This document shows, piece by piece, positions 19,140 to 54,853 of a DNA stretch of 54,853 nt. The notes beneath the pieces were generated by a model. The model was not told where the DNA came from, did not search any database, and worked only from the letters and a program-made list of their open reading frames with translations. Numbering within the stretch: the first letter of the stretch is position 1; each line of letters starts with the position of its first letter. The translations under genes were made by a program, and so were the position numbers. The stretch comes from Candidatus Mnemosynella biddleae (GTDB lineage: Archaea > Halobacteriota > Archaeoglobi > Mnemosynellales > Mnemosynellaceae), in NCBI GenBank assembly GCA_002011165.2, contig MTMI02000006.1, forward strand, positions 1 to 54,853, read 5' to 3'.

Positions 19140-19450
19140 GCAAGCCCTGAAACGGTAACCTTGGTACAACATCTCCAAACCCAAAGTGGCTCCACATAAC
19201 CAACGTAAGAATGCTTGCCGTGACTAATCCAGCGACTGCAAACTGGTCCTCAACCTACTGAGGTTTCGCAGAGCATGTTATGAAGTACAGCCTGTAGATT
19301 GCGGTGCCAACGATCCACACGTAGAGCCACACCGGATCTGAGAGCTAAATTGCCTCCAGATTCGGAATCAAGCAGAATCATGTACGTTATGAAGGGGAAG
19401 TAGAAGTAGTGGGAAAATATCGTGTCCAGGAGAGACTTGAACCTTTACAG
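19140..19450 (-). pseudogene. Decayed paralogue of the PAP2-like gene at 20165-20752
   Basis: The stretch with AATCCAGCGACTGCAAA then GTCCTC and ACTGAGG closely matches AATCCAGCGACTGCGAA, GTCCTC and ACTGAGG at about 20,514-20,553. Further similarity in the TM-coding region follows (CAGCCTGTAGATTGCGGTGCC compared with GGATTTGTATATTGCGAATGC). Stops in every frame show that it is a relic. The original gene was on the - strand like its intact copy 1 kb away. Confidence 0.5.
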
Positions 19451-19655: not shown

Positions 19656-20180
19656 TCAGAATTCGGCCGCATCCAAGACATCCTTTCCCCTCCCCCAAAT
19701 GTTCTTTATCTTGTAATCCCTTCTCAGCCTCAGCGGAACGCAGCAGCACCTGCAGCAGTTGCATATGGCGTAGAAGTCACCCCTGCACTTCACGATGGTC
19801 TGTATCAGGCCTTTTTCGGCGCAGGCATCGATTATCTGCTTAGCCTCCTCTTTCGTTATCGCTCTATACTCATCCGGCCTTGTTGCCATGAAAGCCTCGC
19901 TGCCTACGCCTATCACGATGTCCGTTTCCAGCGGGTTGTGGCAGTTCCTGAAAACCTCCCTACACCTGCACCGCCCGACGGCGATGCTGGTTGAGGCATC
20001 GATGACCTTCTTTGCTTCGTCCCTCGTAAGCACCCAGGCGTTGTGATGCATCGCATACCACTCCATGAAGCGCCTGACGAGCCTGCCAAAGAGTGGAACT
20101 CTCGTAAGCCTGGCACCAAGCATGTAGAGCCTGAGAATGAGTCCTTGGTTCATGCTGTAGAATCTCAGTACGTGGTGCAC
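19656..20180 (-). CDS. Cys-rich probable iron-sulfur protein
   Basis: About 174 residues from a GTG at 20180 that follows a GGGAGGAG ribosome-binding site inside the end of the PAP2-like gene; an ATG at 20153 is the alternative. It has two cysteine clusters, GRCRCREVFRNCHN at about residues 69-82 and KCRGDFYAICNCCRCCCVP at about 131-149. An acidic linker EEAKQIIDACAEKGL between them resembles a ferredoxin-like or Fe-S-binding arrangement. It overlaps the upstream PAP2-like gene by 16 bases, so they are cotranscribed. Function unknown; a redox role is likely. Confidence 0.6.
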   Translation of the reverse strand: MHHVLRFYSMNQGLILRLYMLGARLTRVPLFGRLVRRFMEWYAMHHNAWVLTRDEAKKVIDASTSIAVGRCRCREVFRNCHNPLETDIVIGVGSEAFMATRPDEYRAITKEEAKQIIDACAEKGLIQTIVKCRGDFYAICNCCRCCCVPLRLRRDYKIKNIWGRGKDVLDAAEF

Positions 20181-20752
20181 CTCCTCCCACCTCTGAGGTA
20201 AAGAACCCCTGCTAAGGCTAAAAAGCCCAGGAAGAACCCTGCTATGCTCTGCTCCCACGTGTGGGCATGAACCAGAGGTCTGTTTACCACCATTAGCAGA
20301 GGGATGGGAAGCAAAGCAACGAATTTCCTGTTGAGGGATGTAAGATAGATTACTGGACCTGCAGTGTACGCAACATGGCCGCTTATGTTCCAGAAGGGGC
20401 TTATCAGGGTGTAGGGGATTGAGACGGCTATTGCTGCGATTATAGCTCCAATCATCTCCCTTCCATATCCCTTCATCCTCCAGATAAATGCTGTTATGGC
20501 TATTGCCATCGTCAATCCAGCGACTGCGAAGAAGTCCTCGACACACTGAGGAGCATTCGGTGCCAAGATAAAGTAGGATTTGTATATTGCGAATGCAGTA
20601 ACCCACGAGAACAGAACTGTGAGAATACGTACGCCCAGGCTTCCCCCAGCGTTCCTCCAGTCGTAGTAGAGCACTGGTAGCGAACAGAGAAGCAGGAAGT
20701 AGACGGGGTTGAAGGCGTCTTGATAGATGTACATGAACTCCATGAAGTCCAT
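20165..20752 (-). CDS. PAP2-superfamily-like membrane protein
   Basis: 195 residues with about six TM segments. ISGHVAYTAGPVIYLTSL and, about 20 residues later, VVNRPLVHAHTWEQSIAGF follow the PAP2 phosphatase pattern (SGH, then R-x(n)-H...). The first PAP2 motif (KxxxxxxRP) is not obvious, so the enzyme may be divergent or act on an unusual lipid phosphate. The ATG at 20752 is supported by AAGGAGGGATCAC directly upstream and a TATA-like CTATTTAAACC (about 20783-20795). It is the first gene of a two-gene operon with the Cys-rich protein. Confidence 0.7.
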   Translation of the reverse strand: MDFMEFMYIYQDAFNPVYFLLLCSLPVLYYDWRNAGGSLGVRILTVLFSWVTAFAIYKSYFILAPNAPQCVEDFFAVAGLTMAIAITAFIWRMKGYGREMIGAIIAAIAVSIPYTLISPFWNISGHVAYTAGPVIYLTSLNRKFVALLPIPLLMVVNRPLVHAHTWEQSIAGFFLGFLALAGVLYLRGGRRCTTY

Positions 20753-23161: not shown

Positions 23162-23797
23162 CTACATGAGGAGTTTTGCAAGGTCTGTGGCTTTAACCAG
23201 CAGCGGCTTTCTTTTTCTGACTTCAACGAGCCCTATGTTTTCCAGAGCGGAAATGTGCCTTCTCACAGTACTCTCATCTTTATTAATCCTTTTAGCAATG
23301 GATTTAATGTCAGCAGCTCCTTCACTTATGCTTTTCAGAATACTCAGCTTGTCTTCTCCGGGCTGGAATTTCACCAAGTTCAGCAGAGCTGGAGAGAACT
23401 CCACAACTTGCGAGAAATCTTCAGTTTCGATTTCAATTTTAAGATTCCTGAAGGATCTAAACATGCATGCCAGAAGAACTATGACGATTAACGCCCTCAT
23501 GCCACCGCTGAGGTTTACGATTATTCTAGAATCTTCAATTTCTTCAATTTTCCCTAAAACCTTCTTGATTGAACCTTCAACGTCCATAACGTTTAGCTGA
23601 ATTAATTCAACATCTACGGAATCTCCATAGGAGGTATGAAGCAGCTTTTTTATCCACTCATAGGCTTTTACCACCCTATCTACGATTTCAGCTGTAAAAA
23701 GGATTATCCTATCTCCTTCTTTTATTCCATGCCTTAAAATTGCCCTGTAACAGAACTTTTCGTCAAAGCCAAGAGTAGCGATGAGTGCAGTTGCTAT
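23162..23797 (-). CDS. csa3: Csa3, CARF-winged-helix regulator of the type I-A locus
   Basis: About 211 residues. The N-terminal CARF-type Rossmann domain starts ATALIATLGFDEKFCYRAI and has the ligand loop VNLSGGMRALIVIV. The C-terminal winged helix is DIKSIAKRINKDESTVRRHIS followed by LENIGLVEVRKR. Csa3 binds cyclic tetra-adenylate in Sulfolobus and controls adaptation and array genes there. The N-terminal part is complete only if translation begins at ATA (23797), because no ATG, GTG or TTG occurs in frame before GTG at 23674. The out-of-frame ATG at 23801 lies 4 bases upstream. The gene diverges from the interference operon across a perfect inverted repeat. Confidence 0.85.
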   Translation of the reverse strand: MATALIATLGFDEKFCYRAILRHGIKEGDRIILFTAEIVDRVVKAYEWIKKLLHTSYGDSVDVELIQLNVMDVEGSIKKVLGKIEEIEDSRIIVNLSGGMRALIVIVLLACMFRSFRNLKIEIETEDFSQVVEFSPALLNLVKFQPGEDKLSILKSISEGAADIKSIAKRINKDESTVRRHISALENIGLVEVRKRKPLLVKATDLAKLLM

Positions 23798-23819
23798 GCA
23801 TTATATGTTTTATAATGCA
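23797..23819. promoter_or_regulatory. Perfect 9-bp inverted repeat between csa3 and csa5, probable operator
   Basis: TGCATTATA (23797-23805), spacer TGTTT, TATAATGCA (23811-23819). The arms match perfectly and both contain TATA-like sequence, so a bound regulator would block or organise promoters in both directions. It touches the 5' end of csa3 and lies about 58 bases before csa5. Csa3 itself is the obvious candidate ligand; this is inference. Confidence 0.6.
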
Positions 23820-29126: not shown

Positions 29127-29882
29127 ATGGAAGTTCTCAGCTACTATCAGGAAGAAACTGGTGATAAGGAGCTGCTGGTGAACCACATAGCAACAGCTCT
29201 CGAAGTTATGGAGAGTGTGGAAGATTCCAAGCTTTTCAGACTCGCAGAAAAAATTTACCATGGGCTGGATTTCAAGCAGGCAGTAAGACTGGCGATAGTC
29301 TTTCATGACGCCGGAAAAATTTTCTATCAGAGCAAGCGTGGTGAAAAAGGCAAGAGGTACATGTCTTTTAAAGGACATGAGTATTTCTCTACCTACATTT
29401 TTAACACCTTTGTAAGCAAGCTCTTTGAAATTGATCTCGAAAATTACGAGAGATACGGAGTGATTAGAGACGTCTGCAGTTTTGCAATTTTCTTCCATCA
29501 TCATGCAATGAATGTGAGGCTCAGAAAGCCGGAAATGGAAGAAAGCAGTGTTAGATTTGGGATGAGTTTGCTCGAAACTTTTGAAAATGATGCGAGGCAA
29601 TTTCTGGATCAAAAGGAAGTTGAAGCTCTGAAAAGAGCTGTGAATGAGATCAAAAGCCGAGGAGTTGAAAATTTGATGAGGAGTCTGGAAGTAAACGTGA
29701 ATAGCAGAGTAAACAGTCTTTGGAGGGAAATAATGCAACGAGGAGATTTAAAAAAGCTATCTTACCTGACTTTACTGGTTCTCACAACTGCTGACTATCT
29801 CTCAGCTCAGAAAAATAGAAGATCTGGAAAGTCAACATTCAGCAGAATTCTGGGTGAGTTTCAGCGATTTTACCTTATATAG
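29127..29882 (+). CDS. cas3'': Cas3'' HD nuclease
   Basis: 251 residues from ATG 29127, one base after the cas3' stop. HD-domain metal ligands are visible: LLVNHIATALEV, IVFHDAGKIFYQ (the HD pair), FKGHEYFSTYIF and FAIFFHHHAMN. It should degrade the displaced target strand in the I-A complex together with Cas3'. It is the last gene of the operon. Only 11 bases separate it from the converging CARF-HEPN gene. Confidence 0.9.
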   Translation: MEVLSYYQEETGDKELLVNHIATALEVMESVEDSKLFRLAEKIYHGLDFKQAVRLAIVFHDAGKIFYQSKRGEKGKRYMSFKGHEYFSTYIFNTFVSKLFEIDLENYERYGVIRDVCSFAIFFHHHAMNVRLRKPEMEESSVRFGMSLLETFENDARQFLDQKEVEALKRAVNEIKSRGVENLMRSLEVNVNSRVNSLWREIMQRGDLKKLSYLTLLVLTTADYLSAQKNRRSGKSTFSRILGEFQRFYLI

Positions 29883-29893
29883 GAATTAAGAAA

Positions 29894-31138
29894 TCAAAAT
29901 ATTTTCAAGTTGCTAAGCTCTGGAAAGTCTTCGGATCCAATTATGGCCTTCAAAACTTTGAACGACTTACTAACGACTTGTTCCGCATTCTCTCTGCTAA
30001 TGTCAGAATATCCATGTTCTAGTTTAGAGTTATTTCTAAGCTGAGATATAAACTGTAAATCATCACGTATTTTGCCCATTAATCTATGTGACTCAAGAAA
30101 ATCAAGGACACTCAATCCATTCCAGAGTGTTAACTGTTTTGGAGCATCTTCTTCATCTTTGTACCCCATCAAATCCAGAAGTTCTTGGTAATCCATTATC
30201 TTGGCCCACTCGACTTTCCACGGATTTATTCCATTCTCTAAAAGTTTTACCTGTGTGGCAATCTCGATAGCTCTGTAAGCTCTTAAAACAGCTTCGGTGT
30301 AATTGTGCGTTTTTAACCGTCTTTCGGCATTAACAAGAGCGTCTAGCGAGAGCACATGGCACCCTTCAACATCGACAATGACCTTCTCATTCTGACACTT
30401 TCTCATTTTTTTAAGAGCATTAACAACGATATTACTGATATTTCTGAGCTTCACAACATTTTCAGGAACTTGACCAAAGGCGATATTTTCAAGACTTTCA
30501 GCAGCTTTACCAATTTCGTTGAGTATCCTGACAGCTTTTTCGTATTCAAATAAATCCCACAGCCAGAAAGCTTCGGCAGCTTTTTTAAGAAATCCAAAGG
30601 TTCTGTTTGGTAGCATCTCAGAAAGTTTCTTTGCAAGATAAAACTGATATTGCTCCATATAAGATATGACTTTTCTTGCCAATTCATCTGAAGCAGTTTT
30701 GTATGACTTTTTTGTTTCCATTCTGGTGACTCTTCCGAGTTCGTTCCTAATTTTACCACCAACATATTCGAAAATAAGTTTTGAAGAAATCATTTCCGTT
30801 AAAAACACATGAAAAGCTGCAGCAGACATTGGCTTTGTTCCACCGGTGAAGTTTACTATTATTTCATCAAATTCATGGGTGTCTTTCACCAGTTCTCTAA
30901 GTACTGACACGCAGGAATCTATATCCTCTGGATCGCTTATTTCTATTGGTATTGCAAACTTACCAATTTCCTTAGCCCTCAATTTTGCATTATATGCAAC
31001 ATTAAATGGATTTGGATCCTGATCCGGACTTAGTGGTCGACCGTACACCAAATAAATTACTTCTACATCGTTCCTTGTTATAGATTCGATGATTGGGTCT
31101 AGAGTTGTCCCGACTGTTATGATTAATGCTTTTTTCAT
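29894..31138 (-). CDS. CARF-HEPN protein (TIGR02710/Csm6-like ancillary RNase candidate)
   Basis: 414 residues. Residues 1-170 form a CARF domain: KKALIITVGTTLDPII at the N terminus and the ligand loop NFTGGTKPMSAAAFHVF at 96-112. The C-terminal 200 residues are helical and contain LRNNSKLEHGY near residues 367-377, giving R368-x6-H375, the HEPN ribonuclease signature. This layout fits the TIGR02710 family of type III accessory proteins. If so, cyclic oligoadenylate made by Cmr2 would activate it to degrade RNA. It is the last gene of the cmr operon, 12 bases after the CARF-winged-helix gene. Confidence 0.8.
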   Translation of the reverse strand: MKKALIITVGTTLDPIIESITRNDVEVIYLVYGRPLSPDQDPNPFNVAYNAKLRAKEIGKFAIPIEISDPEDIDSCVSVLRELVKDTHEFDEIIVNFTGGTKPMSAAAFHVFLTEMISSKLIFEYVGGKIRNELGRVTRMETKKSYKTASDELARKVISYMEQYQFYLAKKLSEMLPNRTFGFLKKAAEAFWLWDLFEYEKAVRILNEIGKAAESLENIAFGQVPENVVKLRNISNIVVNALKKMRKCQNEKVIVDVEGCHVLSLDALVNAERRLKTHNYTEAVLRAYRAIEIATQVKLLENGINPWKVEWAKIMDYQELLDLMGYKDEEDAPKQLTLWNGLSVLDFLESHRLMGKIRDDLQFISQLRNNSKLEHGYSDISRENAEQVVSKSFKVLKAIIGSEDFPELSNLKIF

Positions 31139-31150
31139 TCTATAACCTCC

Positions 31151-31900
31151 TTAGGGTCGCACTAATACAGAAACTAAAGCCCTCCCATACTCAGAAACAA
31201 CATAGCGACGCCCAATTTTCTCAAGAATCCCATGTCTGTAAAGCAATTCTCTCTCTTCCGCTGATAGCACATCGAGGTTTGAAGAATGAACAGCGGTTAC
31301 GAGCTTAGCAAGATGTTCACCAGGATACGGTAAAGTCGGAATCCTTATAATCTCATACTCGGATTTAGCAGGGAAAAGAAGGCTGTTAAAGTACCTTTCT
31401 TTCTCCTTGTAAATCTTGATCTTTTCTTCATCGTCCTTAGCTTCGTAAATCCTTCTGATGTCCTCTCTCAGACTTTCAAGCAACTGATTTACTATAGCTA
31501 CGTCTTTAGTGACTACATGGAAAACTCCGTCAACTCCCATAAGCTGCCCCAAGAGAGACAGAGTTATACACGTATTTTTTCTTCCGCCAGCAATGTTTAA
31601 GAGAATTCTATCGCATTTGTGAACTTCTCTTTCCTTCTTTATAATTCTGGCAGCGATGGCCATGAATTGTAGATTTTGCTCTGTCGTGTAAATGTCGTCA
31701 AATGGTAGTTTAATCTCGTGGATTCTGATTCTTGGATACTTGAACTTTAGTCCTATTCTTACGAGCTCGTATCCTCTTTTCACTTCCTCGTTGTCTGTTG
31801 TTAAAACAACGACATCGCTGATTGGCTCAGCTATTCCTTCAATGAATGCTGTTATTACTGGTGGGCTTAAGCCGAGTGGGGCTATTACAGATGTTTTCAT
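31151..31900 (-). CDS. CARF protein with C-terminal winged helix
   Basis: 249 residues. The CARF fold has SVIAPLGLSPPVITAFIEGI at the start and LNIAGGRKNTCITLSLLG at about 102-119 (AGGRK loop). The last 40 residues, VLSAEERELLYRHGILEK then RRYVVSEYGRALVSVL, read as a small winged helix. It resembles the Csx14/NE0113-type CARF group. A cOA-responsive transcription factor or a ring nuclease are both possible. The ATG overlaps the stop of the upstream small CARF gene by 4 bases. Confidence 0.72.
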   Translation of the reverse strand: MKTSVIAPLGLSPPVITAFIEGIAEPISDVVVLTTDNEEVKRGYELVRIGLKFKYPRIRIHEIKLPFDDIYTTEQNLQFMAIAARIIKKEREVHKCDRILLNIAGGRKNTCITLSLLGQLMGVDGVFHVVTKDVAIVNQLLESLREDIRRIYEAKDDEEKIKIYKEKERYFNSLLFPAKSEYEIIRIPTLPYPGEHLAKLVTAVHSSNLDVLSAEERELLYRHGILEKIGRRYVVSEYGRALVSVLVRP

Positions 31901-32475
31901 TTTAATTCTTCAATAGGTATACGAATCAGCCGCAAGGTTAAATCTCTTGGATGGCACATACCAACTATAAAATCTACAATCTGCTTGGGTGGATCCTCTC
32001 TCCCTTCTGCAATGTTTTTAAGATTGAAAATTCTCTGTATAGCAGCAAACTCATTACTTATACCTTTCTTTTCCTCAGCGATTACATGGTAAATCTCTTT
32101 TATTCCATTCTTCTTTGCTACAATCATCATATCGAGGGGCATTGTTTTTCTACCGCCAGCAACGCTTACAATAACATTCTTCCCTTCTTCGATCTTCTTG
32201 GTAATTACGTTCTCTACAATTCGTCTGAATTCTTCACAGTCTTTTTCATCTTTTATATCTGTAAAAGGTAGCTCGCACTTCTCAATCCTTTTCTCTCCCT
32301 TATATGGTCCGTACTTAAAATCGATGAGAAGAGCGTAGTAAGAAGGAAGTACGTCCTTCGTTGGAAAGACTACAACCTCATGAATAGGTATACCCCTCTC
32401 TTCCAAGAGGTCTATAATCTCAGTTATAACCGCTGGTGTCCATCCTATGGAAGATATCAGCACATTCCTTGACAT
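31897..32475 (-). CDS. Stand-alone CARF protein, possible ring nuclease
   Basis: 192 residues from ATG 32475. MSRNVLISSIGWTPAVITEII opens the Rossmann-like domain and VIVSVAGGRKTMPLDMMIVA at about 101-120 is the CARF ligand loop. There is no effector domain. Small CARF-only proteins of this size in type III loci include the ring nucleases that degrade cyclic oligoadenylates and switch the response off. That role is proposed here from size and context only. The frame extends upstream to 32529, but this would overlap cmr6. Confidence 0.68.
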   Translation of the reverse strand: MSRNVLISSIGWTPAVITEIIDLLEERGIPIHEVVVFPTKDVLPSYYALLIDFKYGPYKGEKRIEKCELPFTDIKDEKDCEEFRRIVENVITKKIEEGKNVIVSVAGGRKTMPLDMMIVAKKNGIKEIYHVIAEEKKGISNEFAAIQRIFNLKNIAEGREDPPKQIVDFIVGMCHPRDLTLRLIRIPIEELK

Positions 32476-32488
32476 ATTCCACACCCCA

Positions 32489-33286
32489 TCACTCAAAATA
32501 CCCATATCCAGCGGAAGTTTTTGCACCAATGCCGATCTTCTTAGTGGCCTCTTTTAGTAATTTCATAGCTCTCTCTGCAAGGTTGCTATCTTTAGATGCA
32601 ACAACAAACTTGAATTTTATTCCTTCAACAGCTAAGAAAAACACTGGATTTGGATTCATCCAGTCTCCTGGAGGTGTTTCGCCACTTTCATCTTGATAAT
32701 AGTCTCTGTAGTGGACATTCATGACGTCAAGGACAATAAAGTCTTTATTTTGCCCGATGATTGGTAAAGCGTCGAAAAATACGACCTTTCCTTTTTTATT
32801 TTGACTACCAAATATTTCAATAACCTCATCCCTGAGTAATTTTTTATGTTTCTCAGCATAATGGTGAACTATCCCTTTTATAGCACTTCCGGGAATAATG
32901 GGCACGGAATAATTTCGATGTAAGGTTATAGAGGTTTCATATACACTTTCATTACCAAGTCCCACAACAAGACGCCACTCTATTCTTCCCTCATAGGGTT
33001 TCGGAAAATAGTAACCTTGTGTTCTAAGAGATTCGTAGAGAAAGTTAATTCTTTGAAGATAATTCTCATAATCTTGTAGACTTATCATGTTAGAAGATAT
33101 AGCTAATTTCTTATTTCTTAGTAATTTTATTTGACCTCTTAAATCAAATTTATTTTTATTCTCATCAAAGAAGCAGTATTTATCTAACCAAAGTTTAATA
33201 TTATTTAGAAATCTATTTTCTATTATATCATTTATAAATTGCTCTGGATTTGGAAAATCCTTTTTTGGAAGATAGTATCTCGCCAT
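32489..33286 (-). CDS. cmr6: Cmr6, RAMP subunit of the type III-B effector
   Basis: 265 residues. The RAMP core is in the second half: HRNYSVPIIPGSAIKGIVHHY, then WMNPNPVFFLAVEGIKFKF and the glycine-rich ending IGIGAKTSAGYGYF. The N-terminal region includes YEGRIEWRLVVGLGNESVYET. Start chosen at ATG 33286 because GGAGGAG lies 5 bases before it; a GTG two codons upstream overlaps the cmr5 stop. Cmr6 and Cmr1 form the head of the Cmr complex at the crRNA 3' end. Confidence 0.92.
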   Translation of the reverse strand: MARYYLPKKDFPNPEQFINDIIENRFLNNIKLWLDKYCFFDENKNKFDLRGQIKLLRNKKLAISSNMISLQDYENYLQRINFLYESLRTQGYYFPKPYEGRIEWRLVVGLGNESVYETSITLHRNYSVPIIPGSAIKGIVHHYAEKHKKLLRDEVIEIFGSQNKKGKVVFFDALPIIGQNKDFIVLDVMNVHYRDYYQDESGETPPGDWMNPNPVFFLAVEGIKFKFVVASKDSNLAERAMKLLKEATKKIGIGAKTSAGYGYFE

Positions 33287-33288
33287 AC

Positions 33289-33648
33289 TCACTCCTCCAA
33301 TTCGGCTTCAGCAAATCTTTTCATCCAGTTTAGTAGGGATATAACTTCTTTTGTTTCTTTAAACACTTCCAAAGATGAAGTAGTATCTGATCTTATCCAA
33401 CTAAGTATGTCCTCCTCTTCTGGATGTCTTTCCTTGAACCATCTGTTTACGTGCTCATACAGTTTAGTGTACGCTTCTACCTTTTTTGCTCTCCAAAAAG
33501 CTAGAACATTTCCTAATCCGTTTGAAAGAATGAGTGCTGGAGCTCTTCTTACATATGCCCGATAGTCTTTTTGATAGTTCTGACCTTTAACCTCATTTAT
33601 AAAATCCCACGCCTTTTTTGCCCGTGTCTGCTCTAAACTTCTCAACAT
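33289..33648 (-). CDS. cmr5: Cmr5, small subunit of the type III-B effector
   Basis: 119 residues, all helical. LEQTRAKKAWDFINEVKGQNY and APALILSNGLGNVLAFWRAKK are the Cmr5 family blocks. It lines the belly of the complex next to the crRNA-target duplex. It begins one base after the cmr4 stop. Confidence 0.9.
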   Translation of the reverse strand: MLRSLEQTRAKKAWDFINEVKGQNYQKDYRAYVRRAPALILSNGLGNVLAFWRAKKVEAYTKLYEHVNRWFKERHPEEEDILSWIRSDTTSSLEVFKETKEVISLLNWMKRFAEAELEE

Positions 33649-33649
33649 T

Positions 33650-34513
33650 CTAAATCACCTCTACTTTAATCCTTGCAAATCCCTTTCCGACAGTTTCATC
33701 TCCTCCAATATGCAAAATTTTGTTGTCATATTGGCATAATTTTTTAATAGTTTCCTCTAAAGTTAAATCTTTTAGTCTCCCTGGAATTAGAATCAAGCTG
33801 TACATGATTGTATCAGTCGGAATATACTCTTCAGACCATGGTCCCTCCTCTACAACCCCTTCCTCTCCGATTCTTATTCTGGTGGCAATTTCTGTTGTCA
33901 TTACAACTAAATCTCTAAATAAGTCATCTGTTAGGATGACGAGATCTCGCTCTAGTTTTTCCCTAACTTGTTGGTACTCATTTGTATTTGGTAAAGCTTC
34001 GACAAACGATTGTGTTATTTCATTTAATTCGGTAGATGTTTCTACATTAAGCTTAAGATCCTCCAAGTATATACTATCATTTATTATCAGATTTGAGTCG
34101 GACTTTACTATAGCTTTGTCTTCATTTGAGGGGGCAGGAGTATTCCATGTGAGACTTTTGCCGATTAGATTCATATCTCTCTTAAATCTACTGAGAATAA
34201 ATGGACAAGTAACCCAACCGAACAAGCCTTTAAGACTCCTTACAGGAAAAGCTAGCACTCTAGCATCTGTTACTGAAACTCCTCCAACTCTATCCGGTTC
34301 TCCAAAGAGGATGTTCTCCTCTGTCTTACTAATACCTATAACCCGAGCATGGCTTCTTAGTACTCCCTTTAATGAGGATCCCTGTATCATCGGAAATTCT
34401 GTATGTCTTTCTCTCTGTATTGGTAAGTCAACTGCTTCACTAATTGCCGTCCCACTTCCCGGATGTAAGGGTGTTTCAGCGTAGATGTACATTACCAAAG
34501 CTTTCTCAAACAT
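33650..34513 (-). CDS. cmr4: Cmr4, target-RNA-cleaving backbone subunit
   Basis: 287 residues from ATG 34513, which is preceded by GGGGAGGTGGT. The N terminus has LHPGSGTAISEAVDLPIQRERH followed by FPMIQGSSLKGVLRSHA, the Cmr4 signature. Asp29 in VDLPIQRE aligns with the catalytic Asp26 of Pyrococcus furiosus Cmr4, so target cleavage should be intact. LHIGGDETVGKGFARIKV is the C-terminal RAMP glycine loop. It is two bases from cmr3. Confidence 0.93.
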   Translation of the reverse strand: MFEKALVMYIYAETPLHPGSGTAISEAVDLPIQRERHTEFPMIQGSSLKGVLRSHARVIGISKTEENILFGEPDRVGGVSVTDARVLAFPVRSLKGLFGWVTCPFILSRFKRDMNLIGKSLTWNTPAPSNEDKAIVKSDSNLIINDSIYLEDLKLNVETSTELNEITQSFVEALPNTNEYQQVREKLERDLVILTDDLFRDLVVMTTEIATRIRIGEEGVVEEGPWSEEYIPTDTIMYSLILIPGRLKDLTLEETIKKLCQYDNKILHIGGDETVGKGFARIKVEVI

Positions 34514-34515
34514 TT

Positions 34516-35703
34516 TTACCACCTCCCCAAAAATCCACATCTTAAATCTGTATCACTATCTAAGATTTTTATAGGAATAGACAAATCCTCTTTAATCTCT
34601 CCTTTAAACTTGTAGTAGTATACTGCCCCAGCATTAACCCATCTCCTTAAAGGCTTCTCTTTATTCATAGCGAAGTCATATCCTCCGATGTAGACGGGCT
34701 TTCCCGGAAGTGCTGCCACTAGCTCCAAGTCTATTCCAAGAATCTTCTCAAGTTTATCTTTAGGCGGTATGCAACCACTAAAGTAAGAAGGTGTTGCAAG
34801 ATAAAGTTTAAACTTTTCATCTTCATTTATTCCTTTAATCAATTCAGTCCAGTCAATTCTCTTGTCCTCAATCATCTGGGAGATAGCCCCCCTTCCTTCA
34901 CCTCCCAATTTGATAAGCCCCTCCAGTGATGAAATACTGTCAGGAGCTTCATACCAAACTATAAAGCCCCAATCCTCTATAAGTCTAAGAAATTCAGCTG
35001 TATAAAGAGCTCCTTCTACTGTTTTCTTCTTATCTTTCTCCAATTCAATTCCGGGTCTAATCTCCTTAAAGTAGGGCTTATTTAGTTCTTTATTTTTATA
35101 TTTTATTCTTGTGGGTTTCGGACAGCCTCCATTTAAATAATTTATCAAATCGTTAAAGTCCATCAAACCCTCAACGTTTTTCACTTGAGAACAACCTGTT
35201 ATACTCACACAAACTTTTTTATCCATCCATTTAAACTGAAGGTTCTCTTTGGGCTGTAATTTTACAGTATTACCTTTTTCTCTATCCTCTCTGACTACAT
35301 CATTAGGAATTGGGAAGTATTCTATAAATTCGCCTTTCTTAGCAAAGAAGATGCCTAAAACATTTAATTTTGAGGAAAATTCCAGTGGAGAATAGCCAAT
35401 AACTTCCAACAATTCTTTCAAATCCTTATCTTTCTCCATCAGCTGCTTTACAAATCCTACTAATTCTTCTTTGGTTTTCTTAAAATCTTCTGGAGTTTCA
35501 TTTCTTTTTTTACTCCTTTGGAAATCTCTTGGTGAATAACCTTTTCTTTTGCAGAATTCACTAAATATCTTGGACTTAATTGCACCTTCAAAGGTTAGGG
35601 GTGAAATAACACCAGTTTTTGCTACATGCACCTCTCTTGCAGTAAAAGGTCTCTCAGTTCTGAACATAAGCACATCGATGGGCTCTATAAATAACCTCTT
35701 CAT
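34516..35703 (-). CDS. cmr3: Cmr3, Cas5-like subunit of the type III-B effector
   Basis: 395 residues. The N terminus FIEPIDVLMFRTERPFTAREV is the Cmr3 motif (P-x-D-x-x-x-F-R-x-x-x-P-F). Later come EFLRLIEDWGFIVWYEAPD and PVYIGGYDFAMNKEKPLRRW. It binds the 5' handle beside Cmr2. The ATG overlaps the cmr2 stop by 4 bases. Confidence 0.92.
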   Translation of the reverse strand: MKRLFIEPIDVLMFRTERPFTAREVHVAKTGVISPLTFEGAIKSKIFSEFCKRKGYSPRDFQRSKKRNETPEDFKKTKEELVGFVKQLMEKDKDLKELLEVIGYSPLEFSSKLNVLGIFFAKKGEFIEYFPIPNDVVREDREKGNTVKLQPKENLQFKWMDKKVCVSITGCSQVKNVEGLMDFNDLINYLNGGCPKPTRIKYKNKELNKPYFKEIRPGIELEKDKKKTVEGALYTAEFLRLIEDWGFIVWYEAPDSISSLEGLIKLGGEGRGAISQMIEDKRIDWTELIKGINEDEKFKLYLATPSYFSGCIPPKDKLEKILGIDLELVAALPGKPVYIGGYDFAMNKEKPLRRWVNAGAVYYYKFKGEIKEDLSIPIKILDSDTDLRCGFLGRW

Positions 35704-38234
35704 TCCTCTTCACCCCTATAAGCGTCGTATAGTATTTTCAGCACTTTTCCGATGTCTTCGATAGGCAAGTTATTTTCTTTGTACTTTTCAATTAGGCAAA
35801 GGATTTTTCCGCAAATATCATTTATTTCTTCATTAGTTGCTTTTTCAGTCTTTCTTCTCTTTAGAAGTCTCTTTGTTTCAGCTTTAAGCATATCTCCATC
35901 TAAAATTTCAAGTATTCCTAGGAAATCATAAATAAAGCGATGGGAAATTTTATCTGTTCGTATTGCTTCAACAATTGGTGTGAAGTCACCAACAAAATTC
36001 CACTTTCCACCCGCTGAAAAAAGTTCCCCAGAACGTTTTATAAAAGTCATATAGAATGCATTCCTTCCATACTCATTCTTTGCCCTTTTTTCAGCCTCTC
36101 TTACCTTTTCTATACCATCGTAAAGTGGATACTTGTAGTGAGCAAAAACTATACCAGCGCTCATGCTTGCGTATTTTCCAAGCCCCATAACCTTTCTTTT
36201 CTCGCCGTTAACTTCGATTTCATAGAAGTCCTTTTTGAAGAATTCTTGTAATTCTTTCGCAGCGTTTAGGACTTTATCTGTAGGAAAGAGGGCTAAAACA
36301 TCGTCTCCGCCAGAGTACACTAAAAATCCATAATTTTCCTCGACAATCTCTGGAACCTTATAGATTGAGAAATTCTTCATAGCTCTACTTATTGCTATAT
36401 GAACAGAAGGAGAAAGAATCCTTTTCATATTTGACAGATCTTCTCCTTTTTCCCATTCCATTATCTTGGTTTTGAAAATTGGATGGAAGAAATCTCCAAA
36501 ATTTGGCAAAGTTTCTCCAAATATCGTTTTTCCAATTCTATCTCCATCCATCATTAAAATTGCATAATACTTGTTTGGTCTACCAAAAGCTTTCCACCAA
36601 TTCTCCAATTTATTTTCTATTTCTTCTCTCTTTTCAACTAATTCTAATTGCCTTATGGTTGTTTTCTTCTTTTCATCTGATTTCCACTCATGTTCGTAAA
36701 TTAGCTCGATATCAACATCTTTTAGAAGTTTGAAATCTTCGTCATCCTCTACATTCCTTATGAAATCTCTTCCTGCGATTTCGACAACCGATTTAAATTC
36801 TGGAGATTTAGCTTTAAATTCTTTAAATTCTTCTTTAAATACTTCTGTATAAATTCTTTTAGTCAAACATACAGCACAGAGCCTTTCTCCTTCTTTAAGC
36901 ACATTTTTCCATATCTTATCCTTAATTTCTATATCGTTCCAAGTATCATCCTCCCAGTACTGGTAGATGTCTCCATCCACTCTCCCAACAATAGCATTCC
37001 TCAATCCGCACATTAAGCACTTTTTCCCTGTTATTGGCTCCTCCTCCCAAGCGTCCCATAATCTCGAACTTTGCGTCAGAATAACTCCTAACAATGCATA
37101 AGTTGGAAAATAAAAATGACCGTAGTTAGTTCTTTCTAATTTTTCCACAAAACTGAGCCATCTATCCTGCTTTTCTTTAACATCGCTGGATAGACCATTT
37201 TTCACTTTCTCATAGCTGTCAAGGTTGAAGAATTCTGTATGTGCGACTACAACAGACAAAGATTTCTCAATTTGGGAATTCCATAATTCTTCATTAGGTT
37301 TAATTTTTATTTTATTTAGATACTCTTTTACTTTTTTGGAGATTTCTTTCCACTTCTTCTTTATCGCATTTTTGCATCTTTCCTTGTATTCTTCAGCTCT
37401 ACTAAGCGGTATAAAACAAAGAAAGGTGTTCGGTAAATTCGCTATTTTTATTTTATTCTTGTCAGGAATGATATTTTCTATGCTTAACTCGCTCTTTATG
37501 TAGCAATCAAGTAAAGGGTTCCCTCTTAGCTGAGGGTATATGACCACATCAGGGCCGAGTTCACCAATTACTTCTTTAATTCCTTCAAAAAGTAGCAGTG
37601 AAAAAATATGGCTTGATGCCCACAAATCGGATAGTTTTCTTGAATGAGATATGAACTCTTGAACTGCCGGGATTTTGAGTGAAAATAATCCTAAATCACC
37701 CAAGCATGAGCTTATTGCAGCAGTAACATCCAAATGATCCCATATACTGTGGTCTGGTATTCTTGTGTCAGCTGGTAGGATGTATCCAAGAGGATACTTT
37801 TCTGGCAAGAGTCTCCAAAGTGAGAAATAAGTTTTCTTCCAGTTATTTTTATCAAGAAATTCTTTTACAATTTTTGGATTGAAACCATATTCATCCAACG
37901 CCTTTTCGTAGCCATATGTGGTTATGAAGTCTCTTATTTTCTCAAGATTTTCCGAGTAACCTGATAATGTATGCTTAAATACCGGCTTAGATGCTCCTTT
38001 AAAGCATATGTGATTATTGCATCCTCCTTTATCCATTCTATAGTTGCTGGGGATATCCAATCTTTGCATAGCTGATGCTATATGGTCAGCTGGATCAAGA
38101 CGTTTATCATATTTAAGGCTTAGTTCTTCCAAAATTTTGTCTCTTTTCTCTTCATGTGATTTATGGAATAATATCAATGCCTTATCTGGAGGATCGTGGA
38201 AGAAAGCTTTGATTTTGTCTTGCCATAAGTTCAT
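35700..38234 (-). CDS. cmr2: Cmr2/Cas10, large subunit with cyclase motif
   Basis: 844 residues from ATG 38234, which shares ATGA with the cmr1 stop and follows GGGAGGTGG; GTG at 38246 is an alternative. Visible parts are an N-terminal HD-like segment (KIKAFFHDPPDKALILFHK ... DPADHIASAMQ), a zinc-binding pair (KCLMCG ... LCAVCLTKR) in the middle, palm domain 1 with ILMMDGDRIGKTIFG, and palm domain 2 with the cyclase motif LVYSGGDDVLALFP (GGDD near residue 643). An intact GGDD predicts synthesis of cyclic oligoadenylates on target RNA binding, which fits the CARF genes at the end of the operon. Confidence 0.95.
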   Translation of the reverse strand: MNLWQDKIKAFFHDPPDKALILFHKSHEEKRDKILEELSLKYDKRLDPADHIASAMQRLDIPSNYRMDKGGCNNHICFKGASKPVFKHTLSGYSENLEKIRDFITTYGYEKALDEYGFNPKIVKEFLDKNNWKKTYFSLWRLLPEKYPLGYILPADTRIPDHSIWDHLDVTAAISSCLGDLGLFSLKIPAVQEFISHSRKLSDLWASSHIFSLLLFEGIKEVIGELGPDVVIYPQLRGNPLLDCYIKSELSIENIIPDKNKIKIANLPNTFLCFIPLSRAEEYKERCKNAIKKKWKEISKKVKEYLNKIKIKPNEELWNSQIEKSLSVVVAHTEFFNLDSYEKVKNGLSSDVKEKQDRWLSFVEKLERTNYGHFYFPTYALLGVILTQSSRLWDAWEEEPITGKKCLMCGLRNAIVGRVDGDIYQYWEDDTWNDIEIKDKIWKNVLKEGERLCAVCLTKRIYTEVFKEEFKEFKAKSPEFKSVVEIAGRDFIRNVEDDEDFKLLKDVDIELIYEHEWKSDEKKKTTIRQLELVEKREEIENKLENWWKAFGRPNKYYAILMMDGDRIGKTIFGETLPNFGDFFHPIFKTKIMEWEKGEDLSNMKRILSPSVHIAISRAMKNFSIYKVPEIVEENYGFLVYSGGDDVLALFPTDKVLNAAKELQEFFKKDFYEIEVNGEKRKVMGLGKYASMSAGIVFAHYKYPLYDGIEKVREAEKRAKNEYGRNAFYMTFIKRSGELFSAGGKWNFVGDFTPIVEAIRTDKISHRFIYDFLGILEILDGDMLKAETKRLLKRRKTEKATNEEINDICGKILCLIEKYKENNLPIEDIGKVLKILYDAYRGEEE

Positions 38235-39433
38235 AGTTTTATCCACCTCCCAGGTAAGCTGTCTAAAAAGCTTGTAAGATAATTATATAAAGGGAGATTT
38301 GTTTCTGTTCTTATAGCTCGATCCCTCAAATCGGAAATTAGTAACTTACTATTATCTGGGAGGAATTTAGACAAGAATATTTGTAATCCAATCGCATATT
38401 CGTTCTCGTCCAACTTCCAAATTTTAATTTGTAATGGAGACGCCCTTCTCTCGTATACCACTTCTTTATCTCCAATTCTTTTCACACCTCGCACTATAGC
38501 TTTTTTCCCTATTGACTGAAATTGAAACTGATGGGGTAAGCCAAAAATCGAACCTAAAGGTACTGAAGTAGGGCTGCCTGTATAAATACTCTTTACAGCA
38601 TCATAATCCTTTGTAACCCAATATGAAAATACACCTTTTTTAGTTTTGCGTGTATGCTTTGCAGATGGATTTCTCCTATCTTCTCTATATTTTCGTACCT
38701 CTTCTCCAATATCGTTAATTGCATCGAATGGGGAGGAATATACTCTATCTAAAATTTTCATTTTCCAAAAATTTCGGGCAATAACAGGAAATTCTGGCAT
38801 CGGCGAACCAGTCAAAACCGAAACAGAACCATCCCAACCAAAAATATTCAACACTCTTTTAATATTAACTTCAAGGTATTCTCTTAGCTCTTCTATATTT
38901 CTCGGATTCTTAAATTCTATACCGCCCACTTTAATATCTTTACAAACTCTTAAACTTCCAAAGCCCTTTCTATTTTTGCTTCCAACATTTCCCAGATTTA
39001 GTAGCAGCCATGTAGCAGCTATCACTTTTTCCTTTTCCTCTTCAGAGATCGTAGGCCTAAAGCGAATCTCCACTTTAAATCTGCCTTCTAATATACCCTT
39101 TCTATCGGATAGACCATAACCAAAATATCTTATGCCTTTTCCTTTAAAATTTGGGAGAGATATTTTTAGAGTTCCAAGAAGAGGAAATGTTCTAATAACT
39201 ACTTTACTTTGCTTATCCGTAGTTCCCCAAATTTTATTTTCTTCTACTTTTATCTCTTTTGTATCCTCCATTCCTGAGGAAAGTTTAGCTCCTCCTAAAC
39301 CAGCTCTAAACCACCACCTCAGTAGCCCTCTCAAACTTGGTGCTCGTAGACCCTCATTTTCTATGTTTCTCTGATCTGCGCCAGCAATAAAGAGGGGCGT
39401 TACAGTTTCTACCTCAAGCGTTACATTACTCAT
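38231..39433 (-). CDS. cmr1: Cmr1, RAMP subunit of the type III-B effector
   Basis: 400 residues. ETVTPLFIAGADQRNIENEGL then RAPSLRGLLRWWFRAGLGG at the N terminus is the Cmr1 signature. LGNVGSKNRKGFGSLRV is the first RAMP glycine-rich loop, and a second RAMP half follows. It is the first gene of the cmr operon. GAGGAG lies about 15 bases before the ATG and a TATA-like ATATATAG (about 39561-39568) about 130 bases upstream. Confidence 0.92.
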   Translation of the reverse strand: MSNVTLEVETVTPLFIAGADQRNIENEGLRAPSLRGLLRWWFRAGLGGAKLSSGMEDTKEIKVEENKIWGTTDKQSKVVIRTFPLLGTLKISLPNFKGKGIRYFGYGLSDRKGILEGRFKVEIRFRPTISEEEKEKVIAATWLLLNLGNVGSKNRKGFGSLRVCKDIKVGGIEFKNPRNIEELREYLEVNIKRVLNIFGWDGSVSVLTGSPMPEFPVIARNFWKMKILDRVYSSPFDAINDIGEEVRKYREDRRNPSAKHTRKTKKGVFSYWVTKDYDAVKSIYTGSPTSVPLGSIFGLPHQFQFQSIGKKAIVRGVKRIGDKEVVYERRASPLQIKIWKLDENEYAIGLQIFLSKFLPDNSKLLISDLRDRAIRTETNLPLYNYLTSFLDSLPGRWIKL

Positions 39434-40088
39434 GTCTTCCCAACTCCTCGATATCGTGGAGCTTTATCTAATAATTTATTACAATCACAATTTGACTTCA
39501 CCTGAAATGCCCCATACTATGCTGCGCCCCACACCAATGTACACAATTTTTTGCCAATTGTAACTATATATTGTTTTTGCTCATAAATGCAAAAAATTAT
39601 AGAAGAAATAAATTATTAGTTATCAATGCTTCAAACCTTGAGGCGCTTTTGAAAATGGAGATGGAAAGAGAAGCCTTTTCCTGTCCCTATTGTGGAAGCT
39701 ATGTTTAGATTTCTCCCATGTTGAAAGGTGAAGATTAGAATGGAAGCGATGAAAAAGATAGATTACTATCCAAGAATCATCTCAGCTTCAACCTTCAAGA
39801 GCTTCATTTAATTTTGAAGAAATTGAAAGAGAGAATGCCGTTGAGATCGGAAAGGTTTATTGCGTGATGAAAGGTATATTGCCCACATAGCAAAATATGG
39901 CATGAATGTAAAAGGAGACTAAAAAAGCTATTAGGAACAGAAAGGTGATTGTAAAGAAAACAGGAAAAAGACGTCCCTTGGTTGGATTTGCTGGAGGTAT
40001 AGTATCACAAATCCTCCGCATTAACAGCAACTCATACTCCATTCAGCAAGCAAAACCTTTTATACAACTGACACCTAAAGTAGATAAT
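39434..40088. other. Intergenic, 655 bases with gene scraps
   Basis: The left part carries the probable cmr promoter. Around 39,636-39,707 a short frame reads ALLKMEMEREAFSCPYCGSYV and a stop, a zinc-ribbon-like scrap. Around 39,800-39,900 FEEIERENAVEIGKVYCVMKG is another short relic. Nothing intact is visible. The MNT gene starts at the right end, preceded by a TATA-like CCTTTTATACAA (about 40056-40067). Confidence 0.4.
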
Positions 40089-40685
40089 ATGACATCAAAA
40101 TTAGATAGGTTGTTTGGATCAAGAACGAGGGTACTGCTGCTCTCAAAACTCATGCTCAACCCTGACAGCCAGTTTCACATCCGGGAGCTGTCAAAAATTC
40201 TGAACATACCCTACGGAATGGTTCATAGAGAGATCAAGAATCTAGTATCTCTGGGCATTCTGAGAGAGGAAAAGAGGGGAAAGATTACGCTCATTTCGGT
40301 TAACAAAAATCTTCCGTACTTCAACGAGCTGAAGAGTCTGATTGTCAAAACTACTGGAATAGCAGATATCGTTAGAGAGGCCCTTTCGGGTATGGAAGGT
40401 ATAAGGTACGCTTTGATATTCGGTTCCTTCGCCAGGGGAGATGAGACTGAAAGCAGTGATGTTGACCTGCTGATAGTTGGAGATGCAGATGAAGAGAAAA
40501 TATTGAGAAGGATAAGCCAGGCAGAAAAACAGATAGGCAGGGAAATAAACTACATTTTATGGAGTGAGGAGGAGTTCGCAAGGAAGATCAAGAACAGACA
40601 CCATCTACTGATGGATATTGTGAACAACCCGGTGATAATGCTGATAGGTGAAGAAAATGAGTTTAGAAGAGCTGTTGAGGGATAA
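40089..40685 (+). CDS. Nucleotidyltransferase (MNT) antitoxin with N-terminal HTH
   Basis: 198 residues from ATG 40089. Residues 1-80 form a winged helix (GSRTRVLLLSKLMLNPDS, FHIRELSKILNIPYGMVHRE). Residues about 100-198 are a minimal nucleotidyltransferase with LIFGSFARGDETESSDVDLL (GS-x(n)-D-x-D), so the catalytic residues are present. In MntA-HepT systems the transferase adds AMP to the HEPN toxin. The added DNA-binding domain suggests that it also autoregulates. The start of the HEPN gene lies inside its 3' end. Confidence 0.85.
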   Translation: MTSKLDRLFGSRTRVLLLSKLMLNPDSQFHIRELSKILNIPYGMVHREIKNLVSLGILREEKRGKITLISVNKNLPYFNELKSLIVKTTGIADIVREALSGMEGIRYALIFGSFARGDETESSDVDLLIVGDADEEKILRRISQAEKQIGREINYILWSEEEFARKIKNRHHLLMDIVNNPVIMLIGEENEFRRAVEG

Positions 40686-41082
40686 CGTCATCAGAAAGAT
40701 AAAGCCAGATCGTAATCTTGCCTTGAAATCGCTTGAGCATGCGAAAGAGGATATAGAGACGGCAAAAATTCTGATCGAGAATGAGAGGTATGACTGGACC
40801 CTTGCAATAGCTTACAATGCGATGCTTCAAGCAGGCAGAGCCTTGATGTTCAGCAGAGGTTACAGGCCTTCCAGCAGGGAAGGACATCTGGCAGTCATCA
40901 AATTTCTACATGTAGTCCTTGGTGAAGGAGCTGGCGAGAAGCTGGTAATTGCCCTGAATGGAACCAGAAAGAAGAGACACAGGGTTGTTTATGAGGATAT
41001 GGATGTTGTGTCCGAAAGTGAGGCCGAACAGGTAATTGCATGGGCTGAGGAACTTGTTGAGATGGTAGAAAGGATGATTTGA
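40657..41082 (+). CDS. HEPN-domain toxin partner
   Basis: 141 residues from ATG 40657, preceded by AGGTGAAG. It is a helical HEPN protein of the PF05168 type: ALKSLEHAKEDIETAKILIE, YDWTLAIAYNAMLQAGRALMF, then TRKKRHRVVYED, which corresponds to the R-x-x-R-N/H...Y active-site region. It overlaps the MNT gene by 29 bases and is cotranscribed with it. HEPN toxins are RNases held inactive by the MNT partner. Its placement inside a CRISPR locus suggests a dormancy or suicide role alongside immunity (inference). Confidence 0.82.
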   Translation: MSLEELLRDNVIRKIKPDRNLALKSLEHAKEDIETAKILIENERYDWTLAIAYNAMLQAGRALMFSRGYRPSSREGHLAVIKFLHVVLGEGAGEKLVIALNGTRKKRHRVVYEDMDVVSESEAEQVIAWAEELVEMVERMI

Positions 41083-44377: not shown

Positions 44378-47300
44378 GAAACAGAGAAGAACTCCTAAAA
44401 ATGGAGATTGAAAGTCAACACCTCCTTTCAGCCATCAGGCAAACATAAACACGAAACAGAGAAGAACTCCTAAAAATGGAGATTGAAAGATCTTATCGCA
44501 GTCAATCTCTATAGCATTAAAAACTTCGAAACAGAGAAGAACTCCTAAAAATGGAGATTGAAAGTAAAGCTCGTCCTTCTCAGGGTTGAGAAGAAATACT
44601 CCTCCGAAACAGAGAAGAACTCCTAAAAATGGAGATTGAAAGCTGACTTTCTTGCGCTTAGTTGGGGGTGTCACCAATATTGGGGAAACAGAGAAGAACT
44701 CCTAAAAATGGAGATTGAAAGCACACAATTCGTGTGGCTACCAATGCGAAGATTGCCAGAAACAGAGAAGAACTCCTAAAAATGGAGATTGAAAGTTCAC
44801 GAGTCTCTCTGGTTTGATCCAGAACACTATTCTCTCGAAACAGAGAAGAACTCCTAAAAATGGAGATTGAAAGGATTCTATGTCTGTGGGAATGGCTTCG
44901 ATTATAAGGTTGAAACAGAGAAGAACTCCTAAAAATGGAGATTGAAAGTGATGATGAGCCTACATGGCGATTCTGGAAGCTTCCAGTACGAAACAGAGAA
45001 GAACTCCTAAAAATGGAGATTGAAAGTTAGTTATTCTTACATAAAGGTTATGTCTTCTTACAATGAAACAGAGAAGAACTCCTAAAAATGGAGATTGAAA
45101 GATGTAATGTTCCTCATATAGTGGTTCCATGGTATATAGCGAAACAGAGAAGAACTCCTAAAAATGGAGATTGAAAGGTTTCTCCCTCTGGCTCTTGACA
45201 TAAAGATAGATTTGCGAAACAGAGAAGAACTCCTAAAAATGGAGATTGAAAGGTGAATTTGCAGTTATCGTTGTTCCTGCCTTTGCGTTGAGAAACAGAG
45301 AAGAACTCCTAAAAATGGAGATTGAAAGCTGTAAGCACTGTTATCGCCACTACGACGGCTTTCGCGAAACAGAGAAGAACTCCTAAAAATGGAGATTGAA
45401 AGTCATCCTCAGTTTCGACCTCGAACCACCATCTCCACCGAAACAGAGAAGAACTCCTAAAAATGGAGATTGAAAGACACTTCTATAACGTCCACCATAT
45501 CCGCCACCTACTCTTTGAAACAGAGAAGAACTCCTAAAAATGGAGATTGAAAGATCTTTTCTTCTCTTTTCAGAAATTCTGCTTTGTTCTCTGAAACAGA
45601 GAAGAACTCCTAAAAATGGAGATTGAAAGTCAAATTGGGAAGAGAGGAAGAGTTGCTTTATTTCCTGAGAAACAGAGAAGAACTCCTAAAAATGGAGATT
45701 GAAAGTTGCCGCCCCGGCCCCCCATGGGCGTTTTAGGCGTCGGTGAAGAAACAGAGAAGAACTCCTAAAAATGGAGATTGAAAGCAACTGCCGAGCTGAC
45801 CTCGTCGAGCCTCGTGATGCATGAAACAGAGAAGAACTCCTAAAAATGGAGATTGAAAGTAAATAGGCTTTAGTTTGTGCCAGTGTTTGGTTGTTTGAGA
45901 AACAGAGAAGAACTCCTAAAAATGGAGATTGAAAGCGATCAGGTGCTTCACATTAGCCAAGATTGTTTTCCGAAACAGAGAAGAACTCCTAAAAATGGAG
46001 ATTGAAAGTCAACCATTCTACCACCTCCTTTTTAGTGAATTTTTCGAAACAGAGAAGAACTCCTAAAAATGGAGATTGAAAGTGAAATTGCTGAACGCTG
46101 GATTTGCTCAGTCCAAAAGAAACAGAGAAGAACTCCTAAAAATGGAGATTGAAAGTTTTCTTTCTCCCCTTCAGCGTCTGCGATAGCACTTCTCGAAACA
46201 GAGAAGAACTCCTAAAAATGGAGATTGAAAGGTTCTCCTCTTTTTCAGCTCCCGGCATATCAACTTCGATTTGAAACAGAGAAGAACTCCTAAAAATGGA
46301 GATTGAAAGTTTTTTGCACTGTCGCAGTGTTTGCACTGATAGTTTTCAGAAACAGAGAAGAACTCCTAAAAATGGAGATTGAAAGCCAACCCCTATGTTC
46401 AGAGTATAGCTTTTCTCAAAATGAAACAGAGAAGAACTCCTAAAAATGGAGATTGAAAGAACATTATTCTGAAGGAATCACCAATAGAATTGAGAGCCGA
46501 AACAGAGAAGAACTCCTAAAAATGGAGATTGAAAGATGACCTCCTCATCCCCATCTATCTTTACCGCATATCCATCCGAAACAGAGAAGAACTCCTAAAA
46601 ATGGAGATTGAAAGTGCAGTTTCCCAATTATTATCACAGGCTCCCCAGCGAGAGTGAAACAGAGAAGAACTCCTAAAAATGGAGATTGAAAGATTGTCAA
46701 GTCGTAAGCACACTCTTCAGCTTTCTCTTCCGAAACAGAGAAGAACTCCTAAAAATGGAGATTGAAAGGAAACGTAGTCGCCTGACTCTATCGCTTCTTT
46801 GATGAGGGAAACAGAGAAGAACTCCTAAAAATGGAGATTGAAAGAGTCGGATCCAGCCCAGCTTCCTTAGCCCACCTCACCAAGGAAACAGAGAAGAACT
46901 CCTAAAAATGGAGATTGAAAGAAACACACTGTACACTCTGGCTTATTGACATTTGGAGAAACAGAGAAGAACTCCTAAAAATGGAGATTGAAAGGCAATC
47001 CCTGCAAATATTGGCATCAACATAAATGCTGCTCCGAAACAGAGAAGAACTCCTAAAAATGGAGATTGAAAGTAAACGTACTTTCCATAGACCTTCGTTG
47101 AAATGCCGAAACAGAGAAGAACTCCTAAAAATGGAGATTGAAAGATAACCTCCCAGTATCCGCTTGTGGCGTTGTAAACGATATGAAACAGAGAAGAACT
47201 CCTAAAAATGGAGATTGAAAGTAAACTGGTGTTATTTTTCCCTGTTCAACTAATGTTATGAAACAGAGAAGAACTCCTAAAAATGGAGATTGAAAGAATA

Positions 47301-54580: not shown

Positions 54581-54853
54581 TCTACTACACCTCAAATTTT
54601 TATTTTACCCTTTTATGGGATTACCAAATCTATTACAAATGGGTTCAAGTAATACCTTAGGGAAGCTTATTTCAGATACAAATGGTATATTGACAGGGGA
54701 TAGATGCTATCTAATGATTCGGAACACATGTTGTTCTGGAAGTTTTCAATAAAACAGAATGAACGAAAAATTAACGAAGAAAAAGATAGTCAAAGAAGGT
54801 TGGTTTAACTCTTTTCATCAATGAGAATCCCACAACTCCTCAATTAACTTCAA
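54581..54853. other. Trailer side of the array, no gene
   Basis: After the final repeat the sequence is AT-rich and non-repetitive with no convincing reading frame up to the window edge. The array ends with a full-length repeat rather than a degenerate one. Confidence 0.5.

Follow-up and report, generated by a model that had tools for sequence, protein, structure and literature searches.

Three CARF genes at the end of an archaeal type III-B operon: a candidate cA4 alarm circuit with a CARF-HEPN RNase and two putative ring nucleases

A type III-B (cmr) operon in a 1.5-Mb archaeal genome was found to end in three tandem CARF genes, and we read the operon, with a probability of roughly 0.58, as encoding a complete cyclic-tetra-adenylate (cA4) alarm circuit, in which P0001 would be the RNase and both P0003 and P0002 would be ring nucleases. 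The window, that is the whole stretch of DNA analysed, is one entire contig of 54,853 bases; relatives in the same class include Archaeoglobales/Archaeoglobaceae.

The cmr operon and its CARF-HEPN protein

The operon was shown to run on the minus strand in the order cmr1-cmr2-cmr3-cmr4-cmr5-cmr6 (39433 to 32489), followed by P0003, P0002 and P0001:

38231..39433, minus strand: cmr1 (TIGR01894, 1e-13)
35700..38246, minus strand: cmr2/cas10, with HD at residue 17 and GGDD at residue 646
34516..35703, minus strand: cmr3 (PF09700, 4e-48)
33650..34540, minus strand: cmr4 (TIGR02580, 8e-74)
33289..33648, minus strand: cmr5 (PF09701, 3e-31)
32489..33292, minus strand: cmr6 (TIGR01898, 3e-56)
31897..32475, minus strand: P0003, 192 aa, stand-alone CARF that contains a helical insert; candidate ring nuclease resembling Crn1/Csx14
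31151..31900, minus strand: P0002, 249 aa, Csx14 of the CARF5 clade; a helical insert is present, and a small wHTH-like domain (PF24744) forms the C-terminus
29894..31138, minus strand: P0001, 414 aa, predicted CARF-(6H/HTH)-HEPN ribonuclease of the TIGR02710 / Csx1-Csm6 type
23162..23791, minus strand: csa3, CARF3 and full wHTH (TIGR01884, 5.6e-55), adjoining the I-A operon

Each gene of the complete cmr1-6 set that an earlier note on this DNA had described was confirmed by profile, and so were the three tandem CARF genes behind it: all lie on the minus strand, spaced by at most 13 nt (13 nt between cmr6 and P0003, a 4-nt ATGA overlap between P0003 and P0002, 12 nt between P0002 and P0001), their ORFs are intact, and all three proteins matched CARF families far beyond chance. 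P0003 starts with the ATG at 32475, the same coordinate as in that note, and the ligand loops FTGGTKPM, AGGRKN and AGGRKT read as quoted there. The GGDD motif, likewise said to be kept, was found in a single copy in Cmr2, and together with cmr1-6 it predicts a type III-B system with an active cyclase. A search for a second cyclase across the genome gave none, the only Cas10 palm match being Cmr2. Scanning 29700-39960 for sigma-70 promoters and for terminators gave about the shuffled expectation, the sigma-70 model being uninformative for an archaeon, and an Rfam scan detected two tRNAs only, none near the CARF genes.

The csa3 gene, which the earlier note had named as a further CARF gene linking the pathway to the I-A operon, proved to be real. 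Its 5′ end reaches about 23791–23800, and where its CARF domain begins (23791–23803, minus strand) no ATG, GTG or TTG is present. The first codons of the frame are TGC ATA GCA, which may point to an ATA start or to a frameshift close by. Saccharolobus Csa3a binds cA4 and does not cleave it (PMC8699464). Since Cmr2 is the single Cas10 of the genome, it would be the only source of any Cas10-made cyclic oligoadenylate that Csa3 senses, and a putative Csa3 link from the cmr operon to the I-A operon is plausible.

P0001 showed similarity to TIGR02710 (E = 1.8e-30; 106.2 bits compared to a cut-off of 83.9), to PADLOC CARF-HEPN (1.8e-46) and to the Csm6 HEPN domain PF09670 (1.1e-15). Assignment to the Csx1 family PF22230 was rejected, as that family had no match anywhere in the genome. 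Motif I of P0001 is GTT (residues 10–12) and motif II is TGGTK (K102), and the R-x4-6-H pattern of HEPN domains is present as R368-x6-H375. In an alignment of P0001 with six relatives (24–26% identity to P0001), G10, T98, G100, K102, R368, N369, H375 and G376 were invariant in all seven sequences. The profile matches and the invariant R368 and H375 support the earlier proposal of an effector RNase well, and P0001 is very probably an RNase. With TtCsm6 and other TIGR02710 / Csx1-Csm6 CARF-HEPN RNases it has the CARF motifs, the Csm6 HEPN domain and R-x6-H in common. TtCsm6 is a cA4-activated RNase that degrades cA4 as well and contains the motifs GTS and T, G, K (PMC10897365); P0001 differs by GTT in motif I, and its TGGTK is near the second motif. 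The natural reading of this sequence is a self-limiting CARF-HEPN RNase.

Besides these genes, the window was found to contain a pair of the MNT-HEPN toxin-antitoxin type (39945–41082, plus strand; PADLOC PDC-M05A/B), consisting of a nucleotidyltransferase (246 aa) with an extra N-terminal HTH-like part and a HEPN protein (144 aa), between the cmr operon and cas2/cas4-cas1-csa1. The 37-nt repeat GAAACAGAGAAGAACTCCTAAAAATGGAGATTGAAAG occurs at least 135 times in a CRISPR array that extends over 44378–54853, reaching about the contig end. Two 49-nt direct repeats (19215–19263 and 20503–20551) showed 76% identity, and the ORFs around them (19656–20606 and 20165–20752) showed no family match.

Crn1-like features of P0003 and P0002

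P0003 matched PF09623 (2.9e-18), Csx14 TIGR03642 (1.1e-17) and Crn1 NF040581 (2.1e-13), with scores below the curated cut-off of TIGR03642 (64.5 bits compared to 90.35) and the equivalog cut-off of NF040581 (50.4 bits compared to 125). Sso2081 was the best match in a PDB sequence search (1.3e-7), followed by Sis0455 and Cad1. The AlphaFold model (AF2; pLDDT 92.4, pTM 0.89) showed a CARF fold with a helical insert ahead of the last strand, and Foldseek ranks 1–8 were all Sso2081/Sis0455 (E 3.5e-10 to 5.7e-8; target-normalised TM at most 0.77). Motif II is GRK (G108-R109-K110), and the adenine-binding Asp is D73. Compared to Sso2081, residues Asp75, Gly104, Arg105, Lys106 and Glu17 are kept, Ser11 is changed to Thr and Thr10 to Trp, and Tyr133 is not kept. 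Motif I is GWT and not GTS, its third residue still carrying a hydroxyl. The Crn1-like fold, the helical insert and the ligand residues support the off-switch role proposed earlier, and P0003 is probably a ring nuclease, a reading for which the GWT motif is a real caution. Two Archaeoglobi orthologues with a complete N-terminus (44–46% identity) keep GTS; both adjoin a gene of CARF-HEPN type that lies on the other strand.

P0002 scored above the curated cut-offs of both Csx14 TIGR03642 (1.8e-37; 128.4 bits compared to 90.35) and PF24744, a CARF-associated HTH (3.6e-13), and matched PADLOC CARF5 (1.5e-100), whereas a match to PF09651 was weak and below cut-off (E = 0.022). Full-length homologues in its phylum showed 42–86% identity. 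The best PDB sequence match was again Sso2081 (8e-10). The AlphaFold model (pLDDT 94.4) showed a CARF fold with the helical insert, and Foldseek ranks 1–11 were Sso2081/Sis0455 (best E 2.8e-10; target-normalised TM at most 0.82), with Csa3 only at rank 42 (query-normalised TM 0.37). Gly9, Ser11, Asp75, Gly104, Arg105 and Lys106 are kept, Glu17 is changed to Ala, and motif I is GLS, not GTS.

Thus, P0003 and P0002 have the fold, the helical insert and Asp75/Gly-Arg-Lys in common with the Crn1 proteins Sso2081 and Sis0455 (PDB 7ygh, 7ygl, 7z55). They differ by 19–25% identity in fold alignments, GWT or GLS instead of GTS, the absence of Tyr133 and NF040581 scores below the curated cut-off, and P0002 adds a C-terminal domain. 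Asp75, Gly104, Arg105 and Lys106 were kept in every aligned family member; Tyr133 and Arg172 of Sso2081 were not conserved across the aligned family. The CARF domain of Cad1 (CARF-adenosine deaminase, CARF5) is matched by P0003 in sequence and fold, but neither window protein contains the deaminase domain.

The earlier note had divided the roles differently, with P0001 as RNase, P0003 as off-switch and P0002 as transcriptional output, here taken as a cA4-controlled transcription factor acting on the operon or the CRISPR leader. The winged helix on which this was built stood in part: the PF24744 match and a wing-like hairpin in the model speak for it, but the modelled tail of 55 residues (helices 194–206 and 214–222, the hairpin and helix 237–247) has only two helices before the wing and is missing the three-helix core that a winged HTH normally has. 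The tail has a net charge of +1 (−5 to +4 in the Csx14 family) compared to +6 for the wHTH of the window Csa3, the recognition-like helix before the wing has a net charge of 0 to −3 in 17 of 18 Csx14-family tails, and no full winged HTH with a basic recognition surface was found in P0002. Across the relatives of P0002, the active site was retained in all and the tail was poorly conserved.

A role in transcription is favoured by older literature, in which CARF families without a C-terminal effector, e.g., Csa3 and NE0113, were predicted to be regulators (PMC4012209). On the other hand, ring-nuclease activity has been described for a characterised CARF-wHTH protein, Sso1393 (PMC8699464); like P0002, Sso1393/Sis0811 (APE2256-type ring nuclease with wHTH) combines CARF and wHTH, and it cleaves cA4, but belongs to another CARF family (PF09651). 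TaqCad1, with a CARF of the CARF5 clade like that of P0002, degrades cA4 and restrains co-expressed Csx1 (PMC12669630), a survey of ring nucleases assigned Csx14 to the Crn1 family (PMC12409355), and the partner gene of Csx14 encodes a CARF effector where profiled (see next section). Among the papers searched, none was found to study a Csx14-HTH protein experimentally. The short tail of near-zero charge without a full HTH leaves the transcriptional output proposed earlier weakly supported and makes a second ring nuclease more likely. Together with the Crn1-like fold, the active site and these precedents, it puts a ring nuclease, to which we give somewhat better than even odds for P0002, ahead of a transcription factor, which we consider unlikely.

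CARFs that have lost GTS have been proposed to lack ring-nuclease activity (PMC10018336). Because the motif is lost in both proteins, P0002 and P0003 might bind cA4 and not cut it, serving as inactive sponges or as sensors by which the threshold of P0001 is raised, while P0001 would reset itself through its own CARF like TtCsm6; the GTT and TGGTK of P0001, near the motifs of that self-limiting enzyme, agree with this. However, T10A has no noticeable effect in Sso2081, where S11A severely reduces cleavage and single D75, R105 and K106 mutations greatly diminish it (PMC10018336). The hydroxyl at position 11 and K106, R105 and D75 are all kept in P0002 and P0003, and the nearest P0003 orthologues keep GTS. 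Two inactive proteins are therefore rather improbable, more so than a transcription factor.

Gene neighbourhoods of Csx14

Among 21 sampled Csx14-HTH loci of the phylum, the window included, 13 showed Csx14-HTH leading directly into a gene of 380–438 aa, in ten cases with a 4-nt ATGA-type overlap. All eight partner genes that were profiled were CARF effectors, belonging to TIGR02710 (one), Csx1 TIGR01897/PF09455 (two) or TIGR02221/DxTHG (five); in one of the last group (G119) the effector gene precedes Csx14 instead of following it. Thus, Csx14 holds its place while the effector family changes, and archaeal genomes repeatedly pair it with a large gene downstream, which in the profiled cases encodes a CARF effector. 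P0002 belongs to this family (TIGR03642 with PF24744, CARF5 clade) and differs from most of its Csx14 relatives in standing after a Crn1-like stand-alone CARF.

Some loci showed broken genes: the Csx14-HTH gene of G119 (L038/L138, 5803–6533) is split over two frames (186 aa and a remnant), and the CARF effector gene after Csx14 in G240 (L129, 212–1501) appears broken into three frames. A Lokiarchaeota contig (JAHPZE010000010.1, 9986–20471) was found to contain a RAMP-type cluster and, after it, several CARF-like genes: one for a 338-aa relative of P0003, one Csx14-like, one CARF-HEPN and two further possible CARF genes; an MNT-HEPN-like pair is also present in this cluster.

The nearest relative, Archaeoglobales B5_G16 (L064/L121/L032), contains a type III operon with a gene set unlike that of the window, ending in a PF09651/APE2256 CARF (Sso1393-type), Csx14 and a TIGR02710 CARF-HEPN gene. 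Csx14 of the two genomes showed 82% DNA identity, in a block (31182–31912) that matches the gene almost exactly, whereas the effectors are 28% identical and the first gene belongs to another family. As a reference, Cas6 showed 65% identity on protein level and the S11 ribosomal region 65% on DNA level. This comparison suggests a transfer of Csx14 on its own from operon to operon, and a triad whose first position is taken by varying ring-nuclease-type CARFs. In the tree, stand-alone P0003-type and HTH-type proteins were split at 99/100, the branches being long and the deeper tree unsure. P0002 and P0003 were rejected as recent tandem duplicates on the basis of this split, their 25% identity and the separate relatives of each.

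That chance alone brought unrelated CARF genes together at one integration point, without their forming a functional circuit, is very improbable: ancillary CARF genes do shuffle freely among type III loci (PMC12669027), and P0002 is common to a different type III operon as a gene-precise block, but the genes overlap tightly inside one operon with all ORFs intact, and the B5_G16 triad is analogous, with a different ring-nuclease-type CARF first and a TIGR02710 CARF-HEPN last.

The proposed circuit and its meaning

In the cA4 circuit that we favour, binding of target RNA would cause Cmr2/Cas10 to make cA4, as its GGDD suggests, and cA4 would bind the CARF domain of P0001, whose HEPN domain, judged by its family and invariant residues, would then cleave RNA. 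P0003, predicted from fold and active site to be a stand-alone Crn1-like CARF dimer, would cut cA4 and reset the alarm. P0002, with its Crn1-like active site and wHTH-like tail, most likely cleaves cA4 as well and would be co-made with the RNase that it restrains; control of transcription would at best be a secondary role. As a messenger, cA6 was disfavoured, since no cA6- or cA3-activated effectors have been found in archaea (PMC11229360). Counting against the circuit are the loss of GTS in P0003 and P0002, the missing conservation of Tyr133 and Arg172 across the family, the annotation of PF24744 as HTH and the Ala in place of Glu17 in P0002. A second ring nuclease occurs in only about 4% of ring-nuclease loci (PMC12409355); a pair in one operon would thus be unusual, though not without precedent. 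Tentatively, two diverged Crn1-type ring nucleases might split the shut-off of cA4, e.g., a fast, free P0003 and a slow P0002 with the RNase, the Csx14-effector pair being a "weapon plus safety catch" swapped among type III subtypes; we hold this to be possible, with the odds against it.

The Saccharolobus I-A(1) cluster (csx1, crn1 sso1393, sso1397) also contains several CARF genes, with effector and off-switch, class 1 neighbours and, as in the window, Csa3 located elsewhere (PMC8699464). It differs in its CARF families and is not described as a single tight operon after cmr1-6. Published work already covers type III loci with multiple CARF genes, the presence of ring nucleases next to effectors, and cross-talk through Csa3 (PMC11229360, PMC12409355, PMC8699464), and the present arrangement is built from known parts and is not a new system. 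What is new is the Csx14-effector pair across effector families, the apparently swapped triad and the evidence, from sequence comparisons and models, that argues against a transcription role of Csx14.

Csx14-HTH proteins are found repeatedly in the type III loci of archaea, and related CARFs have been interpreted in two ways, as transcription factors or as ring nucleases. The ring-nuclease reading of Csx14 is favoured by its conserved overlap with an adjacent CARF effector gene, by its Crn1-like active site and by its weak HTH, and the three small proteins of this one operon make it testable. If P0002 and P0003 both cut cA4, the operon would be a natural case for asking why two off-switches are kept for one alarm.
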